In this document: positions 19,647 to 26,288 of the stretch, in pieces
How positions within the stretch are numbered: position 1 is the stretch's first letter
How the letters are laid out: the number at the start of each line of letters is the position of its first letter
Source: Sphingomonadales bacterium
GTDB lineage: Bacteria > Pseudomonadota > Alphaproteobacteria > Sphingomonadales > Sphingomonadaceae
Direction of reading: 5' to 3'
Assembly (NCBI GenBank): GCA_028870315.1
Contig: JAGWPW010000034.1
Span: 1 to 35,245 of the forward strand
DNA length: 35,245 nt
The notes under the pieces: model-generated
Told to the model about the DNA's origin: nothing
What the model saw: only the letters and a program-made list of their open reading frames with translations
The model's database searches: none
Program-made: the position numbers and the translations under genes

Positions 19647-19661
19647 CCGCCGTTCAGGCGG
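19647..19661. terminator. short G+C-rich hairpin between gltA and the kinase-like gene
   Basis: CCGCC at 19647-19651 pairs with GGCGG at 19657-19661 around a five-base loop. It lies in the 28-base gap between two converging genes and covers the stop codon of the minus-strand gene. There is no T-tract. It may help end both transcripts, but such hairpins occur by chance in G+C-rich DNA. Confidence 0.25.
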
Positions 19662-21012
19662 CGGCGGGGATTTCCAGGGTGAAGCGCGCGCCCTCGCCCG
19701 GTGTGCTCGCGACGGAAATGTCGCCACCCATCGCCTGCGCAAGGCGGCGCGATATATAAAGACCGAGCCCCGAACCGCCGTCGCCGGCGCGCCCCAGCCG
19801 TTCGAATTTCGTAAACAGCTTCACCTGCTGCTCGGCGCTCAGCCCCGGCCCCTCGTCGGCAACCGTGACGCAGGCGCGCTCCCCCTGCCGCGCCAGCGAC
19901 AGCGTGATGGTGCTGTGGTCGGGCGCATATTGGATCGCATTGCCGACAAGGTTCAAAAGCACCTGGAGAACCCGGCGGAATTCGGCATGCGCCGGACATT
20001 GCACGCTATCGGGCGGGACCAGCAGCGTGATCGCGCGGGCGCGCGCCCGGCCCCCGAGGATGCCGGCGGCGCGCCGGGCCAGATCGCCAAGATCGATCGT
20101 CTCGGCGACGGTGGTGAAGCCCGCCGCCTCGATCACCTCGAGATCGGCAAGATCGGTGACCAGCGACATGAGATGCTCGCCGGCGGCGGCGATGTCGGCT
20201 GCATAGCGCACATAATCCTCGTCGAGCGGGCCGGCGAGCCGGGCACGGATGGTCTCGGCCCGGGCGATGATCCGGGCGATCGGGCCGCCAAGCGCCGACG
20301 CGAGTTCGCGGCCGAACAGACGCTCCGCGCCGGGCACCGAAGGGAGCGCGGGTTCCTGCGGGGTCTGCGCGCAGAGGAAAAGCTCGAATCCGGCGGGCGT
20401 CGCATGCGGGCGCGGCAGCGGCAGCAGCCGCGCCGTCCACTGCCGCGGCGAGCCGTCGATGCCGACGCTCGCGCCATCGAGCAGCCGCCAATGCATCGGC
20501 AGGCGGTGGTGCTCGCCGCGAATGTGCAGGAAATCGGTCCATGGCCGGCCAAGCCCGCCGCGCATCGCGGCAAGCAGCGGTGCGAGTTCGGGGCTCGCGC
20601 TCTCCACCGCGAGCAGATGCTGGCGCGCATCGAGCCGGGCGGTAAGTTCGGCAAGCGCGCGGTCGATCTCGAAGCGCCGGTCATGACCGGTCGCGCCGTC
20701 CTCGGCGGCAAGCGGCGTGCCGTGCCATTGCCGCACCGCGATCGCGCAGCCGGGCTCGCCATCGGCACGCGGACCGATCTCGACCCAGGCGCGGATCGCC
20801 TCGGCGCCATCCTGCGCCGCGATCGCGCGCGCGAAGCGCAGGCCAAGCCGCCGCGCCCGCACGACCAGCGCCGCAAGCGCGGGAATGGCGATCGCTCCGG
20901 GAAGCGTGCCGCCGCAGCGCAGCTGCAAGCCGGCGAGCGGCTCGTCCGCGCGCAGCAGGCGATCGTCACCATCGGTTTCGGCATGGGCGAGGGCGTCCGC
21001 CGAAGGCGTCAT
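19654..21012 (-). CDS. histidine-kinase homologue, cytoplasmic, apparently lacking the phospho-His
   Basis: A 452-residue protein with no membrane helix. The first half (to about 225) is soluble and PAS-like in pattern. A dimerisation-type segment follows at about 230-292, then a complete HATPase_c domain at about 340-450. That domain has the N box NLVGNAIQYAP (354-364), G1 box DEGPGL (386-391) and G2 box GSGLGLYISRRLAQAMGG. In the H-box position, LFGRELASALGGPIARI aligns with the usual SHELRTPLNAI form, which puts Arg235 where the phospho-accepting His should be. ATP binding looks possible but autophosphorylation at the normal site does not. The ATG overlaps the upstream stop codon (ATGA). 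No response regulator gene is adjacent. It could act as an allosteric or scaffold protein; that is inference. Confidence 0.8.
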   Translation of the reverse strand: MTPSADALAHAETDGDDRLLRADEPLAGLQLRCGGTLPGAIAIPALAALVVRARRLGLRFARAIAAQDGAEAIRAWVEIGPRADGEPGCAIAVRQWHGTPLAAEDGATGHDRRFEIDRALAELTARLDARQHLLAVESASPELAPLLAAMRGGLGRPWTDFLHIRGEHHRLPMHWRLLDGASVGIDGSPRQWTARLLPLPRPHATPAGFELFLCAQTPQEPALPSVPGAERLFGRELASALGGPIARIIARAETIRARLAGPLDEDYVRYAADIAAAGEHLMSLVTDLADLEVIEAAGFTTVAETIDLGDLARRAAGILGGRARARAITLLVPPDSVQCPAHAEFRRVLQVLLNLVGNAIQYAPDHSTITLSLARQGERACVTVADEGPGLSAEQQVKLFTKFERLGRAGDGGSGLGLYISRRLAQAMGGDISVASTPGEGARFTLEIPAAA

Positions 21013-21965
21013 CGCGCCGGCTCGCGCACGGTGGTGCTTCCCGCCAGCATCGCGGCGGCGGCGGCGGGCGAAATTCCGGCGATCGCCTCGACCAGCGCCG
21101 GCGGCGCATCGACGAGCAGGAGACTTGCCTGCACGACCTCGCGCTTGACCCCGGCCTTGCGCAGCAGCAGCGCCAGCCGTGCGCCCTGCCCCGGCTGGAG
21201 CGCAAGCACGCAGACGCCCCGCGCCTCGCCGGTTGCCGCCGACAGCGCGGCGAGGAACAGCGGCACCCCTGCGTGCGCGAGCGAGCCCGCCGCCACCGCG
21301 CCTGCGCCCATCGCCACGACCAGCCGATCGGCAAGCGCGATCCGGGTCGCGGCCTCGTCATAGGCGGCGCGAATGCCCGGCAAATGCGCCACCGCCTGCG
21401 CATCGTCAGGCACATCCGCCGCGCCGCGCGCCGCATCGAGCACGGCATCGAACAATTCGGCGGGCAATTCCGCCACCGGCAGCCGCATTTGCTGCTGCTG
21501 GCGCAAAAAGCGCGCCTCGGCGGCGAGCAGATGCATCGCTGCCGCCGCGGTTTCGGGCTCGGGCGCGGCGATCAGCGCCTGAAGCAGCGGCGAGACCACC
21601 GGATCGAGCCGCAGCCGGGCTTGCAGACGCTCCGCAGCGCGCGCCTCCAGCGCCAGCGCGTGCAGATGATCGAGCAGCCCCGGCCGCGCCGACAACAGCC
21701 GTTCGAGCGCATCGAGCGCCGGCTCGCGCGGGGCATCGCCCGCATCAGCCAGCAATTGCTCGGCAAGATCACGCAGCATGCCGCGGATGCCGGCGATCAC
21801 CGCCTCGTCGAACAGGCCGGTTTCGGCATGGCCGAGCCGCAGCCGCAGCATCGGCGCGATCGCCTGCGCCGCCGCCTCGCCTTCGGCCAGCCCATCGAGC
21901 AGCCGTTCGGCGGCGCCCGCGCGCACAGTCGGTTCACCAACGCCCATCACCGGATCATAGGCCAT
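21009..21965 (-). CDS. helical protein, DUF2336-like, function unknown
   Basis: A 318-residue soluble protein, almost entirely predicted helix, rich in Ala and Leu, with no signal peptide, membrane segment or recognisable catalytic motif. Repeating helical pairs through the middle and C-terminal half (for example HLPGIRAAYDEAATRIALADRLVVAMG and AALVEAIAGISPAAAAAML-like segments) give it the look of the HEAT-like DUF2336 family of alphaproteobacteria. The identification is by overall pattern only. It is the third gene of a four-gene minus-strand cluster: 17 bases after the membrane protein gene, and its stop overlaps the start of the kinase homologue. Coupled translation suggests the two proteins act together. 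Confidence 0.6.
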   Translation of the reverse strand: MAYDPVMGVGEPTVRAGAAERLLDGLAEGEAAAQAIAPMLRLRLGHAETGLFDEAVIAGIRGMLRDLAEQLLADAGDAPREPALDALERLLSARPGLLDHLHALALEARAAERLQARLRLDPVVSPLLQALIAAPEPETAAAAMHLLAAEARFLRQQQQMRLPVAELPAELFDAVLDAARGAADVPDDAQAVAHLPGIRAAYDEAATRIALADRLVVAMGAGAVAAGSLAHAGVPLFLAALSAATGEARGVCVLALQPGQGARLALLLRKAGVKREVVQASLLLVDAPPALVEAIAGISPAAAAAMLAGSTTVREPAR

Positions 21966-21982
21966 GCGGGGTTAACTCGCGG

Positions 21983-23158
21983 TTAGCCCTGTTTGGCGAG
22001 GCGCAGCACGAACAGCCCGCGCGCAAGGATCATCAGCGCCAGCACCGGCACCCCGCCGCCGAGCAGCCCCGCGAGCGCGAGCGCGGCGAGCGCGAGCGCG
22101 ATCAGCCCCCGGTCCTCGAGCCAGCGGGCCGCGCCAGGGGGCTCGATCCGCGCGACGAGCCGCGCCAGCCCGAGCAGCACCAGCGGCGCGAAGCCGCGTT
22201 CGAGCAGGTCCTGCCCGACGGGAGTGGGGCGGCATTGCACCACCAGCAACGCGAGCAGCGCGTCCATCAGCCAGCCATAGACGACGAGACGCAGCAGGCG
22301 CGGCGCCGGCAATTGCAGGCTGTCGCGTTCGACCCGCGCCAGCATGACCGCCGCACACAGCAACAGCCAGGCAAGCGCTGCCATCGCGAAAGCGGGCGTC
22401 GCCCACTGGAACCGGCCCGCGACCAGCGCGATCATCGCGGTGACGACGGCCGCGGCGAAGACCACACGGTTGCCACTGCCGGCGTGGAGCAGCGCCGGTC
22501 CCAGCCGCCGCACCGCGAGCCGCGCCGCCGATTGGGTAGCATTGGCCTGCCCCGAATCCCCGGTTTCGAACTCGATCCAGCGCGCCTCGCCGGCATGGGC
22601 TTCGGCGTCGCTGCGCACCAGCCGCCAGGCACCGCTCGCAAGCGTCGCTTCGGGCAGGATGCGCTGCGCAACCGCGGCCTGGAGCGCAATGCGCTGCAAG
22701 GACGAAAAGGCGTCGCAATCCGCCGGCAATTCGCCCAGCCGCTCGACCAGCCGGCCGGGGATGCGGATGGCGCCGGCATCGGCGTGATTGAGATCGAGCC
22801 GCTCGAAGCCCGCCGCCAGCCCCGCCTCGATCGGCTGCGCCACGACCGCCGGTCCGTGTTCCAACAGCGCCATCATCGCCTGCGGCCGGGCGAGCAGGCC
22901 GTCCGCAAAGGCGATCAGCTCGTCGGTGGCGGTGACCAGCGCAATAAGCCCGCGCGGCTCGGCAATCGCATAGAGCCGGGCACCGACCGCCTCGGCCGCC
23001 GCGCGCAGCGGTGCGGTCGCGGCATCGCCGCCGCCGGTCAGGCAGACGATGCGCTCGCAGCCCAGCGCCAGCGCCAGCGCCAGCTGGTACCGGACGAGTG
23101 TCGCGGACCCGAGACGAAGATGCGCGCGCAGGCCGCCATCCTCGGCCGGTGCCTCCAT
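21983..23158 (-). CDS. membrane protein with NTP-transferase-like N-terminal domain, unassigned
   Basis: A 391-residue two-part protein. Residues 1 to about 200 are soluble. HLRLGSATLVRYQLALALALGCERIVCL, split here by its two elements RLGSATLVRYQ and LGCERIVCL, recalls the start of MobA/RfbA-type nucleotidyltransferases, but the Gly-rich nucleotide loop (GxGxR) is not seen. The second part (about 230-385) has five or six hydrophobic helices. It resembles sphingomonad proteins annotated as CDP-alcohol phosphatidyltransferase, yet I find no DxxDGxxAR catalytic motif. Activity is therefore doubtful. The start is ATG at 23158; a TTG nine bases upstream is possible and neither has a strong ribosome binding site. 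It lies between the Hpt-like and DUF2336-like genes. Confidence 0.6.
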   Translation of the reverse strand: MEAPAEDGGLRAHLRLGSATLVRYQLALALALGCERIVCLTGGGDAATAPLRAAAEAVGARLYAIAEPRGLIALVTATDELIAFADGLLARPQAMMALLEHGPAVVAQPIEAGLAAGFERLDLNHADAGAIRIPGRLVERLGELPADCDAFSSLQRIALQAAVAQRILPEATLASGAWRLVRSDAEAHAGEARWIEFETGDSGQANATQSAARLAVRRLGPALLHAGSGNRVVFAAAVVTAMIALVAGRFQWATPAFAMAALAWLLLCAAVMLARVERDSLQLPAPRLLRLVVYGWLMDALLALLVVQCRPTPVGQDLLERGFAPLVLLGLARLVARIEPPGAARWLEDRGLIALALAALALAGLLGGGVPVLALMILARGLFVLRLAKQG

Positions 23159-23224
23159 GCTCAGCAATGCGACGCGCAGAGGAAATCTCCCGGCTCCGAC
23201 CCTGCGCCTAGCTAGTGAGGCTTG

Positions 23225-23283
23225 CCGCCCGTCGCAATGCCGGAGGTTGGCGGGCGGTGGTGTCCGAGCCCTGCCTGGCAGGG
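23225..23283 (-). repeat. two hairpin-forming repeats after the Hpt-like gene
   Basis: CCGCCCG at 23225-23231 pairs with CGGGCGG at 23251-23257. CCCTGCC at 23269-23275 pairs with GGCAGGG at 23277-23283. Both lie in the 140-base gap between the Hpt-like gene and the next gene of the cluster. They could attenuate or process the transcript here, leaving the small first gene more abundant; no T-tract is present. Confidence 0.3.
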
Positions 23284-23298
23284 TTTGGGAACGGACGG

Positions 23299-23604
23299 TC
23301 AGTCGGTGCGGGTGAAATCCGCGTGGAAGCGGTGCAGCCGGCGCAGCACCACCGGGTCGCCGGGCGCGCCTTCGAGCGCCTGCTCGGCGAGCGCGAGCAG
23401 CGGCTCGGCGTGGAAGCTCCCCGCGAGCCCCTTCAGACGCATCGCGCTGACCTGCCAGTTGGCATCGCAGCGCGCGCGCTGCATGAAGTCGATCTGCCGC
23501 GCGAGGCTTTCGGCAAAGGCAGCACGAAGCTCACGGAACAGGGCCGGATCGCTGCCGGCGGCGGCGGCAAGGGTTGTGTCGAGATCGCCACAGACGAAGG
23601 CCAT
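23299..23604 (-). CDS. Hpt-like protein, apparently lacking the phospho-His
   Basis: A small helical protein of 101 residues. The segment SAMRLKGLAGSFHAEPLLALAEQALE (residues 53-78, read in two parts as SAMRLKGLAGSF and AEPLLALAEQALE) matches the core of histidine phosphotransfer (Hpt) domains, whose signature is AHxLKGxAxxxGA followed by a helix LAxxLE. The Lys and Gly of LKG are present, but the position of the phospho-accepting His is Met55. Phosphotransfer through this site is therefore not expected. Start: ATG at 23604, with a GTG immediately before it as an alternative. It is the first gene of the minus-strand cluster and diverges from the TipN-like gene. The fold assignment rests on one motif and is moderately secure. 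Confidence 0.65.
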   Translation of the reverse strand: MAFVCGDLDTTLAAAAGSDPALFRELRAAFAESLARQIDFMQRARCDANWQVSAMRLKGLAGSFHAEPLLALAEQALEGAPGDPVVLRRLHRFHADFTRTD

Positions 23605-23619
23605 CACCCGCTTTTGTCA

Positions 23620-23656
23620 GCAAAATCTTAAAGGGGTGTTTATCCCCCGATTTTGC
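23620..23656. promoter_or_regulatory. nested inverted repeat between the Hpt-like and TipN-like genes
   Basis: GCAAAATC at 23620-23627 and its exact complement GATTTTGC at 23649-23656 enclose a second pair, GGGG (23633-23636) and CCCC (23644-23647). The whole element occupies the centre of the 68-base gap between two divergent start codons (23604 and 23673). It is A/T-richer than its surroundings. A site shared by both promoters, bound by a dimeric regulator, is the simplest reading. TTGTCA at 23614-23619 just beside it could be a plus-strand -35 element. Confidence 0.5.
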
Positions 23657-23672
23657 ATGCTAGATTCGCGCC

Positions 23673-26288
23673 ATGGCAGCAGAACCCAGATTCAGCACGA
23701 TCGATCCCAAGGATCCTCCCGTCGATCCGTTGATCGGCACGCCCTTCGGCGGCGCGCCGGTGGACGACTGGCAGCCGGTCTCGCTTGGCCGCGAAGAACC
23801 CGCGGCCGGGACGCGCCTGCGCGACTGGGTCATTCCGGTGCTGGCGCTGGCCGCGCTTGCCGGGTGGACCGGCTTTTTCATCTGGGCGAATTTCGCGGCG
23901 ATGCGCGCGATCAGCGACCCTGGCATCTGGACCGGCTGGGCAAGCAACTGGGCAGCGCCGGCGGTGGTGATCGGCATCGCCTGGCTGATCGCCATGCGCT
24001 CCAGCCGGCGCGAGGCGGGGCGCTTCCTCAATGCCGCGCGGCGGCTCGCCGATGAGAACGAGCGGCTCGAAACGCGGATCACCGCGATCAATCGCGAACT
24101 CAGCCTCGCGCGCGAATTCGTGACGGCGCAGGCGCGCGATCTCGATGCGGTCGGCCGGATCACGGTGGAACGGCTGTCGCAGCATGGCGAGCGCATGCAG
24201 GCGCTGATCAGGGAAAACGGCGAGGAGGTCGAGACGATCGCCGCGGTCAGTGCCCGCGCGCTCGACAATATGGAACGGCTGCGCGGGCAATTGCCGGTGC
24301 TGACCACCGCCGCCAAGGATGTCGCCAATAATTTCGGCCTCGCCGGGCGCACCGCGCAGGCGCAGCTCACCGAACTCGAACAGGGCTTCGCCCGCCTGAC
24401 CGCCAGCGCGGAGCGCAGCCAGGAGCAGGTGAGCGAGCTTCACGGCACGATCGACCGCGGGCTCGATACGCTCGCGGCGCGCAGCGACACGCTCGGTTCC
24501 GACATGGCGGCCCGCCTCGCCGCGATCGAGTCCGAGGCACAGCGCCTCGATGCGCGGCTGCAAGACGAGCGAACCACCTTCTACGGCGGGCTTCGCGCCC
24601 GCACGAGCGCGCTCGACGCCGAAATCGCCGCCACCCGCGAGCGTTTCGAGCGCGACGAGGCCGAGAGCCTGGCGGCGTTGCGCACCCGGCTGCTCGCGCT
24701 GCGCGAGGAGTGCGGCGCGCTGGCGCATGCGCTCGCCGAGGGCGAAGCCGCCGCGCAGGCGCGCTGGCACGACGCGGTCGGGCGGATCGATGCCGATTTG
24801 CGGCGCTTGTCCGAACTCGCCGAAAGTACCGGCGACAAGGCCGCCGCAACCAGCCGCGGACGCATGGCCGCACTCGCCGAGGAAGCCGCCGCGCTCGAAC
24901 GCGTGCTGAGCGAGACCGCGGCGCGCTTCGATATCGAAACCACGCGGCGACGCCACGGCAGCGAGGCGGCCGACCGGGCGATGATCGAACGGCTTGAAGG
25001 CGAGTTCGCGCGGATCGATCAGACGCTGGCGGCGAGCGAGGCGCGGCATGGCGCACATTTCGACCAGCTTGCCGATCGCGGTCAGGCCATGCTTGGCGAG
25101 CTTGGCGCGATCGAGACCCGCATCGCCGGGATCGCCAGTACCAGCGCCGCCGCCGATGGCGCGATGCGCCAGCAGCTGGGCGCGCTCGCCGCGCGGCTCG
25201 GCGAAAGCCGCGGCGAGCTCGATGCGACCGAAATCGCGCTCGCGGGGCTGACCGACAATGCGGTGCGTCTGCTCGAAATCATCCAGGCGGGCTCGGCGCA
25301 CAGCCGTGGCGATCTTGCCCGGGCGATCGACACCGGCGCAGCGCGGCTCGGCGAGATCGAGACGCGGGTGCAGGCACTGCGCGATGGCCTCGGCGCGATC
25401 GATCGCAGCGGCGCGGCGCTCTCGACGCTGGTCGGCGACGTCCAGGAGCGGATGCGCGCGGCGAGCGACGGGCTGCACCGCTGGCATGCCGAGTTCGATC
25501 GCACCACCGAGGGCCATGGCCGCAAGCTCGATGAACTCGCGCAGGCGCTCGCCGATCTCGACCGGGCCAATGGCGCGGCGGCAGCGCGCGCCGAAACCGT
25601 GCTGGCGAACGCGATCCGGCAGCTGCGCGAGCAGGCGGGCGCAGCGATCGTCGCGATCGAGCAGCGCGGCGCGGGCGCGATCGCCGGGCTCACGGCGCAG
25701 CTGGGCGAAGCAAGCGGCGAGGCGATCGAGCGGGCGATGCGCTTGCAGGTCACCGAGATCACCGGCAAGCTCGAACAGGCGGCCACGCACGCCGCAGGCG
25801 TCGGCCGCAAGGCGACCGGCGAGCTGCGCGGCGAGCTGGCGCGGGTCGAGGAACTGCTCGGCGCGCTTGAAACGCGCGTCGATGCGGCCCGCAACCGCGC
25901 CGAGGAGCAGGTCGACAACGGCTTCGGGCGGCGCGTCGCGCTGATCACCGAAGCGCTCAATTCGAACGCGATCGACATTGCCAAGGCGCTCAACGCCGAG
26001 GTCAGCGATACCGCCTGGGCGGCCTATCTGCGCGGCGACCGCGGGATCTTCACCCGCCGCGCGGTGCGGCTGCTCGATGCGCCAGAGGCGCGCGGCATCG
26101 CCCAGCTTTACGAGGCCGATCCCGGATTTCGTGATCACACATCGCGCTACATCCACGATTTCGAGGCGATGCTGCGGCAATTGCTCTCCACGCGCGATGG
26201 CCATGCGCTGGGGGTGACGCTGCTGTCCTCGGACATGGGCAAGCTCTATGTCGCGCTGGCGCAGGGGATCGAGCGGCTGCGCAACTGA
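23673..26288 (+). CDS. large two-TM coiled-coil protein, TipN-like polarity factor (tentative)
   Basis: An 871-residue protein. An acidic, Pro-rich N-terminus (1-48) leads to two membrane helices at about 52-73 and 91-109, separated by a short loop. A very long region of Ala/Glu/Arg/Leu-rich heptads follows from about 115 to 750, clearly coiled coil. The last 115 residues are different and look conserved, with SNAIDIAKALNAEVSDTAW, FTRRAVRLLD, HDFEAMLRQLLSTRDG and VTLLSSDMGKLYVALAQ. This architecture and length match Caulobacter TipN, a new-pole marker that positions division and flagellar proteins. I recall the C-terminal block as shared with TipN homologues but cannot check it. ATG 23673 has no clear ribosome binding site; CTAGAT lies 8-13 bases upstream. 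Confidence 0.6.
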   Translation: MAAEPRFSTIDPKDPPVDPLIGTPFGGAPVDDWQPVSLGREEPAAGTRLRDWVIPVLALAALAGWTGFFIWANFAAMRAISDPGIWTGWASNWAAPAVVIGIAWLIAMRSSRREAGRFLNAARRLADENERLETRITAINRELSLAREFVTAQARDLDAVGRITVERLSQHGERMQALIRENGEEVETIAAVSARALDNMERLRGQLPVLTTAAKDVANNFGLAGRTAQAQLTELEQGFARLTASAERSQEQVSELHGTIDRGLDTLAARSDTLGSDMAARLAAIESEAQRLDARLQDERTTFYGGLRARTSALDAEIAATRERFERDEAESLAALRTRLLALREECGALAHALAEGEAAAQARWHDAVGRIDADLRRLSELAESTGDKAAATSRGRMAALAEEAAALERVLSETAARFDIETTRRRHGSEAADRAMIERLEGEFARIDQTLAASEARHGAHFDQLADRGQAMLGELGAIETRIAGIASTSAAADGAMRQQLGALAARLGESRGELDATEIALAGLTDNAVRLLEIIQAGSAHSRGDLARAIDTGAARLGEIETRVQALRDGLGAIDRSGAALSTLVGDVQERMRAASDGLHRWHAEFDRTTEGHGRKLDELAQALADLDRANGAAAARAETVLANAIRQLREQAGAAIVAIEQRGAGAIAGLTAQLGEASGEAIERAMRLQVTEITGKLEQAATHAAGVGRKATGELRGELARVEELLGALETRVDAARNRAEEQVDNGFGRRVALITEALNSNAIDIAKALNAEVSDTAWAAYLRGDRGIFTRRAVRLLDAPEARGIAQLYEADPGFRDHTSRYIHDFEAMLRQLLSTRDGHALGVTLLSSDMGKLYVALAQGIERLRN

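Follow-up and report, generated by a model that had tools for sequence, protein, structure and literature searches.

DivL of Caulobacter is described as a histidine pseudokinase of the polarity and cell cycle network, which binds its partners without passing on phosphate (PMC5361649). TipN is presented as the new-pole marker of the same organism (PMC10127582), while SpbR, to judge by the title of the 2019 work of Wang and Bowman as cited in PMC12700997, concerns the development of its cell poles. Here, we describe a five-gene locus encoded by a 35,245-nucleotide stretch of Sphingomonadales DNA (GenBank assembly GCA_028870315.1, contig JAGWPW010000034.1, positions 1 to 35,245), which is referred to below as the window and derives from a draft genome of 3.13 Mb. 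The locus comprises genes for a histidine kinase homologue without its phospho-histidine (pHK), a divergent DUF2336-family protein (DUF2336L), a membrane protein with the fold of IPCT-DIPPS enzymes (NTPT), a small Hpt-fold protein, likewise without its histidine (HptL), and a TipN-like coiled-coil protein. It is proposed that, in the family studied, the locus probably represents a TipN-linked phosphorelay which was stripped of its phosphate-carrying residues and retained as a non-phosphorylating assembly.

The comparison drew on a first set of 31 homologous loci (32 rows with the window), on a named set comprising the best 80 of 535 matches retrieved with one peptide pattern, and on an order-level sample of 147 genomes, of which 64 belong to the family or clade studied (labelled f1 in the genome search) and 83 to other families. 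Named f1 relatives include Novosphingobium, Erythrobacter, Pontixanthobacter, Tsuneonella, Aurantiacibacter, Blastomonas and some Sphingomonas, among others. Outgroup TipN-like loci were taken as 13- to 16-kb stretches, 20 from the same order (L117 to L136) and 20 from other orders. Because the locus sets share species, the locus counts given below are not independent.

Loss of the phospho-histidine from kinase and carrier

The ATPase domain of pHK is readily recognized by Pfam (HATPase_c, 95.9 bits), while its HisKA match, at 18.2 bits, falls below the cut-off of 26.9. The residues of the ATP-binding N, G1, F and G2 boxes are invariant across all 32 rows of the first set. The H-box, the canonical motif of which is HELRT, has been rewritten: the MSHELRTPL of related kinases reads LASALGGPI in the window, with Ser239 at the phospho-histidine position, and mostly x-x-P-V/A-L-R-Q-P-I in close relatives. 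The Glu which follows the histidine is also missing, and the Thr of HELRT is replaced in most rows. Histidine is absent from all 54 family-profile rows scoring above 300 bits (P 32, R 9, G 5, E 2, Q 2, and S, T, A and D once each) and from all 73 named rows retained after those below 250 bits had been dropped (P 71, R 1, K 1), some species being present in both sets; the rows left out below 300 bits were four His-containing relatives and, for the rest, low-scoring other kinases or fragments. By hand count, the pHK family is present in 58 of the 64 f1 genomes.

The DHp domain, the former site of the histidine, is the most conserved region of pHK, with a mean pairwise identity of 0.70, compared to 0.68 for the CA boxes and 0.41 for the N-terminal part. 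Across six close pairs, the median ratio of nonsynonymous to synonymous substitution rates (dN/dS) was 0.073 for the kinase, 0.076 for HptL, 0.123 for DUF2336L and 0.134 for NTPT, and by such codon comparisons the kinase and HptL are under purifying selection and are not decaying.

The genome of the window encodes a second His-less kinase, separate from pHK (contig C62, locus L296), the H-box of which carries Tyr (MSYEFRTPL); from this motif, we take it to be of the DivL type. The possibility that pHK is itself DivL was ruled out, as this separate Tyr kinase is present in the genome and pHK groups with DUF2336-linked kinases and not with the DivL-type branch.

At the phospho-histidine position of HptL, which is surrounded by an LKGLA motif, the window encodes Met56. 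None of 28 HptL rows possesses a histidine (M 13, L 5, Q 4, E 3, G 2, T 1). Neither do 14 of 14 additional loci of f1, in which the residue is W, L, A, S or R (a fragment from L103 does not cover the site), nor do 79 of the 80 named loci (M 52, L 18, Q 6, S 2, R 1, H 1). The window protein scores 12.7 bits against Pfam PF01627, below the gathering threshold of 24.6, and this profile reaches an E value of 0.1 or better in 11 of the 28 rows (best, 1.5e-4). HptL is predicted to fold as a helical bundle, and the structures which match it best are those of Hpt proteins, namely, HptB of P. aeruginosa (PDB 7c1i; Z 11.8, root mean square deviation [rmsd] 2.8, 99 residues aligned) and ShpA of Caulobacter (PDB 2ooc; Z 9.4, rmsd 2.8, 94 aligned). 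Because Z scores below approximately 13 are weak for helical bundles, and unrelated four-helix bundles reach up to Z 9.7 in the same match list, the assignment of HptL as an Hpt rests mainly on intermediate sequences from the same locus, of which all four His-containing examples tested exceed the Pfam cut-off. A PDB sequence search with HptL returned weak matches alone, which were taken for chance; HptL matches were found in 56 of the 147 order genomes at an E value of 0.01 or better, weak ones included.

The original prediction, that the kinase homologue and the Hpt-like protein had both lost the residue that carries phosphate while keeping their folds, was thus upheld for both proteins. The observation is real, and its conservation across relatives, the tree described below and the dN/dS values place it beyond chance.

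DUF2336L of the window is matched neither by Pfam PF10098 (DUF2336) nor by NCBIfam NF052659 (SpbR), and its predicted membership of the DUF2336 family is based on synteny and intermediate sequences. The Pfam profile detects one of the 32 first-set rows (E 1.1e-6) and gives values down to 1.2e-16 in other f1 genomes, the deep f1 branch G053 aside; a PDB sequence search with DUF2336L yielded no match at an E value of 1 or below. Among DUF2336 proteins of other families, two of three TipN-side representatives tested pass the SpbR cut-off, the third, a partial open reading frame (ORF), reaching 216 of the 400 bits, and kinase-linked outgroup proteins reach 171 to 172 of the 400 bits. Counted by hand, the Pfam profile finds nothing in 46 of the 64 f1 genomes, one weak match in 17 and three in G053; a hand count for the other families of the order gave 1 to 10 matches each in 78 of the 83 genomes.

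The NTPT model (pLDDT 95.4) shares its whole-length fold with the Archaeoglobus IPCT-DIPPS (PDB 4mnd; Z 24.3, rmsd 4.2, 357 aligned), and a sequence profile match supports the same relationship (E 1.1e-6). CDP-alcohol phosphotransferases carry a catalytic motif of four Asp residues, and nucleoside triphosphate (NTP) transferases a GxGxR loop. The NTPT family consensus has no Asp at any of the four positions in an alignment read by eye, Asp302, which lies just past this stretch, is kept in 98% of 53 rows, and the GxGxR loop was not seen in the NTPT alignment. Because the aligned stretch does not preserve the catalytic Asp residues, NTPT is likely a third inactive enzyme, and one that could be used as a membrane anchor. 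No paralogue of NTPT was found in its own genome at an E value of 1 or below. Upstream of the start used here, the NTPT frame reads LRVA(L/V)LS or LRVALLT in the window (23167 to 23190, minus strand) and in L157, L167, L171, L208 and L221; the NTPT start in several relatives may be CTG or TTG, and that of the window is perhaps a CTG a few codons upstream.

Descent from histidine-containing relatives

Three genomes of other families, together with G053, gave as their best kinase matches PAS histidine kinases with an intact H-box (L154, L155, L156 and L149), and a DUF2336 gene lies directly upstream of the kinase gene in all four stretches; other out-family genomes gave one similar kinase match each, at 173 to 206 bits. 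In a 43-row kinase tree, the 16 pHK rows form a clade (support, 100/100) which is joined to the four DUF2336-linked His kinases (100/99) by a long pHK stem. When a canonical kinase was used as the query against the genome of the window, pHK was the best match at 131 bits, the next scoring 79.

A TipN-like gene was detected in 129 of the 147 order genomes. An Hpt gene is located upstream of TipN on the opposite strand in 12 of the 20 same-order outgroup loci, or 9 of 17 without the three which had been chosen with prior knowledge of an Hpt match, and in 4 of the 20 loci from other orders, the outgroup Hpt profile having been built from the same order's own matches. The histidine is kept by every TipN-linked Hpt outside the derived clade (17 of 17, representing 16 outgroup loci and G053 [L100]). 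TipN shares its stretch with a DUF2336 gene in 13 of the 20 same-order loci and in 2 of the 20 other-order loci. In the TipN-like tree, every His-less case falls within one clade (94/94, or 98/93 when L107 and L112 are removed), with G053 outside it on a long branch, a topology which fits a single loss of the histidine.

Because the 17 TipN-locus Hpt proteins and the four DUF2336-linked kinases outside the derived clade all keep the phospho-histidine, the module is derived from His-containing relay parts. These parts look like those of a working relay tied to TipN, f1 being where the chemistry would have been lost, and the ancestral kinase and Hpt may have been direct partners. The original prediction had set beforehand, as a ground for its refutation, the finding of His-keeping homologues at the locus; such homologues were found outside the derived clade, as described, and none within it except for one HptL in 80.

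Linkage of the genes and competing explanations

The original prediction had proposed a comparison across sphingomonads to see whether the five genes stay together, and this proved to be partly so. Of the 80 named loci, the best among 535 matches, 72 contain all five, in a single arrangement which extends far past close relatives, and in the remaining eight the contig ends near HptL. Throughout the first 31 loci, the kinase, DUF2336L and TipN-like genes are present; NTPT was not found in 1 of the 32 loci (L053). The flanks are conserved: gltA borders the kinase side in 30 of the 31 loci, and 28 carry DUF1467 and RNase J at the TipN end. In this clade, the kinase, DUF2336L and NTPT genes adjoin the TipN-Hpt pair. 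When neighbouring housekeeping genes (gltA, gltX, RNase J and coaX) were taken as controls in 22 loci, the rates of the kinase, DUF2336L, NTPT and TipN-like proteins co-varied (partial r 0.46 to 0.83, 0 of 500 permutations), and the neighbour DUF1467 co-varied weakly with the same four (0.15 to 0.30).

Several observations count against the proposed non-phosphorylating assembly. The kinase and NTPT genes lie apart from the TipN-like gene in at least 12 f1 genomes (those fetched being G005, G035, G044, G047, G056, G062, G080, G088, G116, G119, G140 and G144); DUF2336L was detected in six of the 12, there with the kinase and NTPT, and the HptL match stays by the TipN-like gene in 10. In G097, outside these 12, the kinase and TipN-like genes are on different contigs, making it a 13th split candidate. 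In 10 of the 12 split genomes, gltA has stayed on the stretch that carries the kinase (as its immediate neighbour in eight), so that the linkage of the kinase block to gltA is no weaker than that to TipN. HptL is missing from the matches in L047, L050, L056 and L060 (4 of the 32 loci, the window included in the total) and is without clear rate co-variation (r 0.04, -0.01, 0.19 and 0.19; at least 6.6% of permutations). Reciprocity of the kinase matches is imperfect, another kinase of G050 scoring 155.3 bits to the DUF2336-linked kinase compared to 150.2 for pHK. The exact branch of the histidine loss is unsure, because the earliest rows of the clade, L107 and L112, have neither Hpt nor kinase of this kind at the locus. 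Finally, the sole HptL histidine, 1 of 80, belongs to Pontixanthobacter rizhaonensis (L163), where the adjoining kinase, one of the 73 named rows counted above, is without one; it is read as a stray change, and it counts against a strict rule.

The conserved flanks, and the attachment of gltA to the kinase in the split genomes, would be expected if the genes had simply been inherited between gltA and the DUF1467-RNase J block without a joint function. We regard this housekeeping synteny as improbable: DUF2336-kinase pairs (4 of 4 stretches) and TipN-Hpt pairs occur in other families, where no adjacent gltA was found, and the rates of four of the five proteins co-vary over and above the controls gltA, gltX, RNase J and coaX, with DUF1467 following weakly. 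A different explanation accepts the function and disputes the loss of chemistry. PDK/BCKDK and SpoIIAB-type GHKL kinases phosphorylate partners on other residues, and pure scaffolds often lose their ATP boxes; the invariance of these boxes over 32 rows would thus suit a pHK that has kept kinase or phosphotransferase activity of a different type, with its GHKL ATPase domain phosphorylating a partner in trans on another residue. The conserved CA domain is, however, no proof of catalysis, because the scaffold-type pseudokinase DivL also keeps the kinase fold; moreover, the H-box neighbours of the histidine (the Glu and, in most rows, the Thr) are replaced as well, and the linked Hpt is itself without a histidine, so that we judge this explanation unlikely, albeit the most serious of the competitors.

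Alternatively, HptL and pHK could be decoys which bind receivers or kinases belonging to functional relays, such as CckA-ChpT-CtrA, and inhibit them. The plant pseudo-Hpt AHP6 inhibits relays in this manner, "pseudo-Hpt" already appears as a term for plant proteins in print, HptL keeps the Hpt fold without its histidine, and kinases with intact His motifs are present in the same genome. Decoy action would leave the link to TipN, NTPT and DUF2336L and the conserved ATP boxes unexplained, and we consider it quite unlikely.

A non-phosphorylating assembly acting as a scaffold or ATP-gated switch remains the likeliest reading. Sequence comparison shows the loss of the histidines, the descent, the constraint and the linkage; ATP gating, complex formation and action at the pole are inferred. 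The original prediction had suggested a scaffold or allosteric module tied to cell poles or the cell cycle, and this is partly supported. In such an assembly, pHK would function as an ATP-gated conformational switch and as a docking protein via its conserved DHp surface, DUF2336L would be its ancient partner, NTPT would anchor the assembly to the membrane, HptL would serve as a docking or decoy module, and the TipN-like coiled coil would place the whole at the cell pole or division site. A more far-reaching version, which we put forward only tentatively and hold somewhat more doubtful than true, is that a complete TipN-linked relay lost both histidines and was kept as an ATP-gated polarity complex with a pseudo IPCT-DIPPS membrane anchor, three of the four operon products being pseudoenzymes or pseudo-carriers.

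Layout of the locus and its place among known systems

The positions of the features are compiled in the table below. An ORF check found the original prediction correct in its coordinates and strands and in placing four minus-strand genes divergently from the TipN-like gene; the two genes that it described as overlapping are those of DUF2336L and the kinase, the former overlapping the start of pHK by 4 bp (ATGA).

Features of the locus, in coordinates of the window
Feature	Position	Strand	Basis
pHK, His-less histidine kinase homologue (452 aa) with a diverged N-terminal part, a DHp domain and an intact HATPase_c domain	19654..21012	-	ORF, profile matches
Ser239 codon, H-box phospho-His position (mostly Pro in close relatives)	20296..20298	-	alignment to MSHELRTPL of related kinases; codon checked
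DUF2336L, divergent DUF2336-family protein (318 aa)	21009..21965	-	ORF, synteny, profiles
NTPT, IPCT-DIPPS-like fold (NTP-transferase and CDP-alcohol phosphotransferase membrane domain); catalytic motifs apparently absent	21983..23167	-	structure and profile comparison
HptL, His-less Hpt-fold protein (~101 aa); likelier start, ATG at 23604	23299..23607	-	
Met56 codon, Hpt phospho-His position	23440..23442	-	alignment
TTAA-N7-TTTA conserved element, divergent promoter region	23628..23642	+	intergenic comparison
TipN-like gene (871 aa), encoding a long coiled coil; two hydrophobic segments near the N terminus (by eye); last ~120 aa highly conserved	23673..26288	+	

The HptL/TipN-like intergenic region measures 65 bp. 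Across 107 loci, its conserved element is of the GTTAA-N5-GGTTTA type, with a GTGGTAT-like box downstream, and TTAA-N7-TTAA is present within one mismatch in 84 of the 107 intergenic regions and exactly in 16 (single-letter shuffles, 1.5% and 0.1%, respectively). The strict form of the element matched 11 times in eight genomes, seven of these matches being at the divergent HptL/TipN-like promoter, and a reversed control pattern gave three matches on the reverse strand and none on the forward strand of the same genomes; beside the other four sites, no cell cycle gene was recognized by eye. Upstream of TipN-like genes in 60 other loci, the element was found exactly in none and within one mismatch in 12 (shuffles, 9.8%). 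It looks, from these counts, nearly private to the divergent HptL/TipN-like promoter. Control of this promoter by CtrA was considered and is unproven, the element being mostly confined to one promoter, with no cell cycle gene recognized at its other sites. In L031, L032, L040 and L208, the element continues into TTATCCACA, a word resembling the DnaA box.

A search of the open-licence portion of PubMed Central for sphingomonad literature on TipN, DUF2336, SpbR, pseudo-Hpt or pseudokinase retrieved nothing relevant, and no description of a five-gene His-less module was found in print there. Single histidine pseudokinases such as DivL are known; in the present locus, kinase and carrier are both without the phospho-site. 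As relatives that retain the histidine can still be traced in sister families (those of the Hpt at the same locus), the system represents a natural experiment, and the module would allow one to ask how much of two-component signalling is due to protein docking and not to the chemistry of phosphate. The ties of DUF2336/SpbR, Hpt and kinase genes to TipN-like genes in other alphaproteobacteria also mark their products as candidate TipN partners.

Relative to described proteins, NTPT has the same overall fold as IPCT-DIPPS and the CDP-alcohol phosphotransferases, apparently without their catalytic motif. The predicted fold of HptL is like that of HptB and ShpA, but without the phospho-histidine, and the plant pseudo-Hpts represent a case independent of it. 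TipN-side homologues of DUF2336L in other families meet the SpbR score (two of three), whereas the window protein itself goes unrecognized by either family profile. The TipN-like protein, with N-terminal membrane segments seen in its sequence by eye and a long coiled coil indicated by coiled-coil matches, was compared with Caulobacter TipN, likewise a membrane-anchored long coiled-coil protein, by architecture alone; outside the f1 clade, TipN-like genes have polarity-type neighbours (SpbR family, Hpt). The closest precedent is DivL, which, like pHK, has a kinase fold with the phospho-histidine replaced. The two differ in that DivL carries Tyr at the site, whereas pHK carries Pro, Arg, Gly, Ser and others, and they occupy separate branches of the kinase tree.

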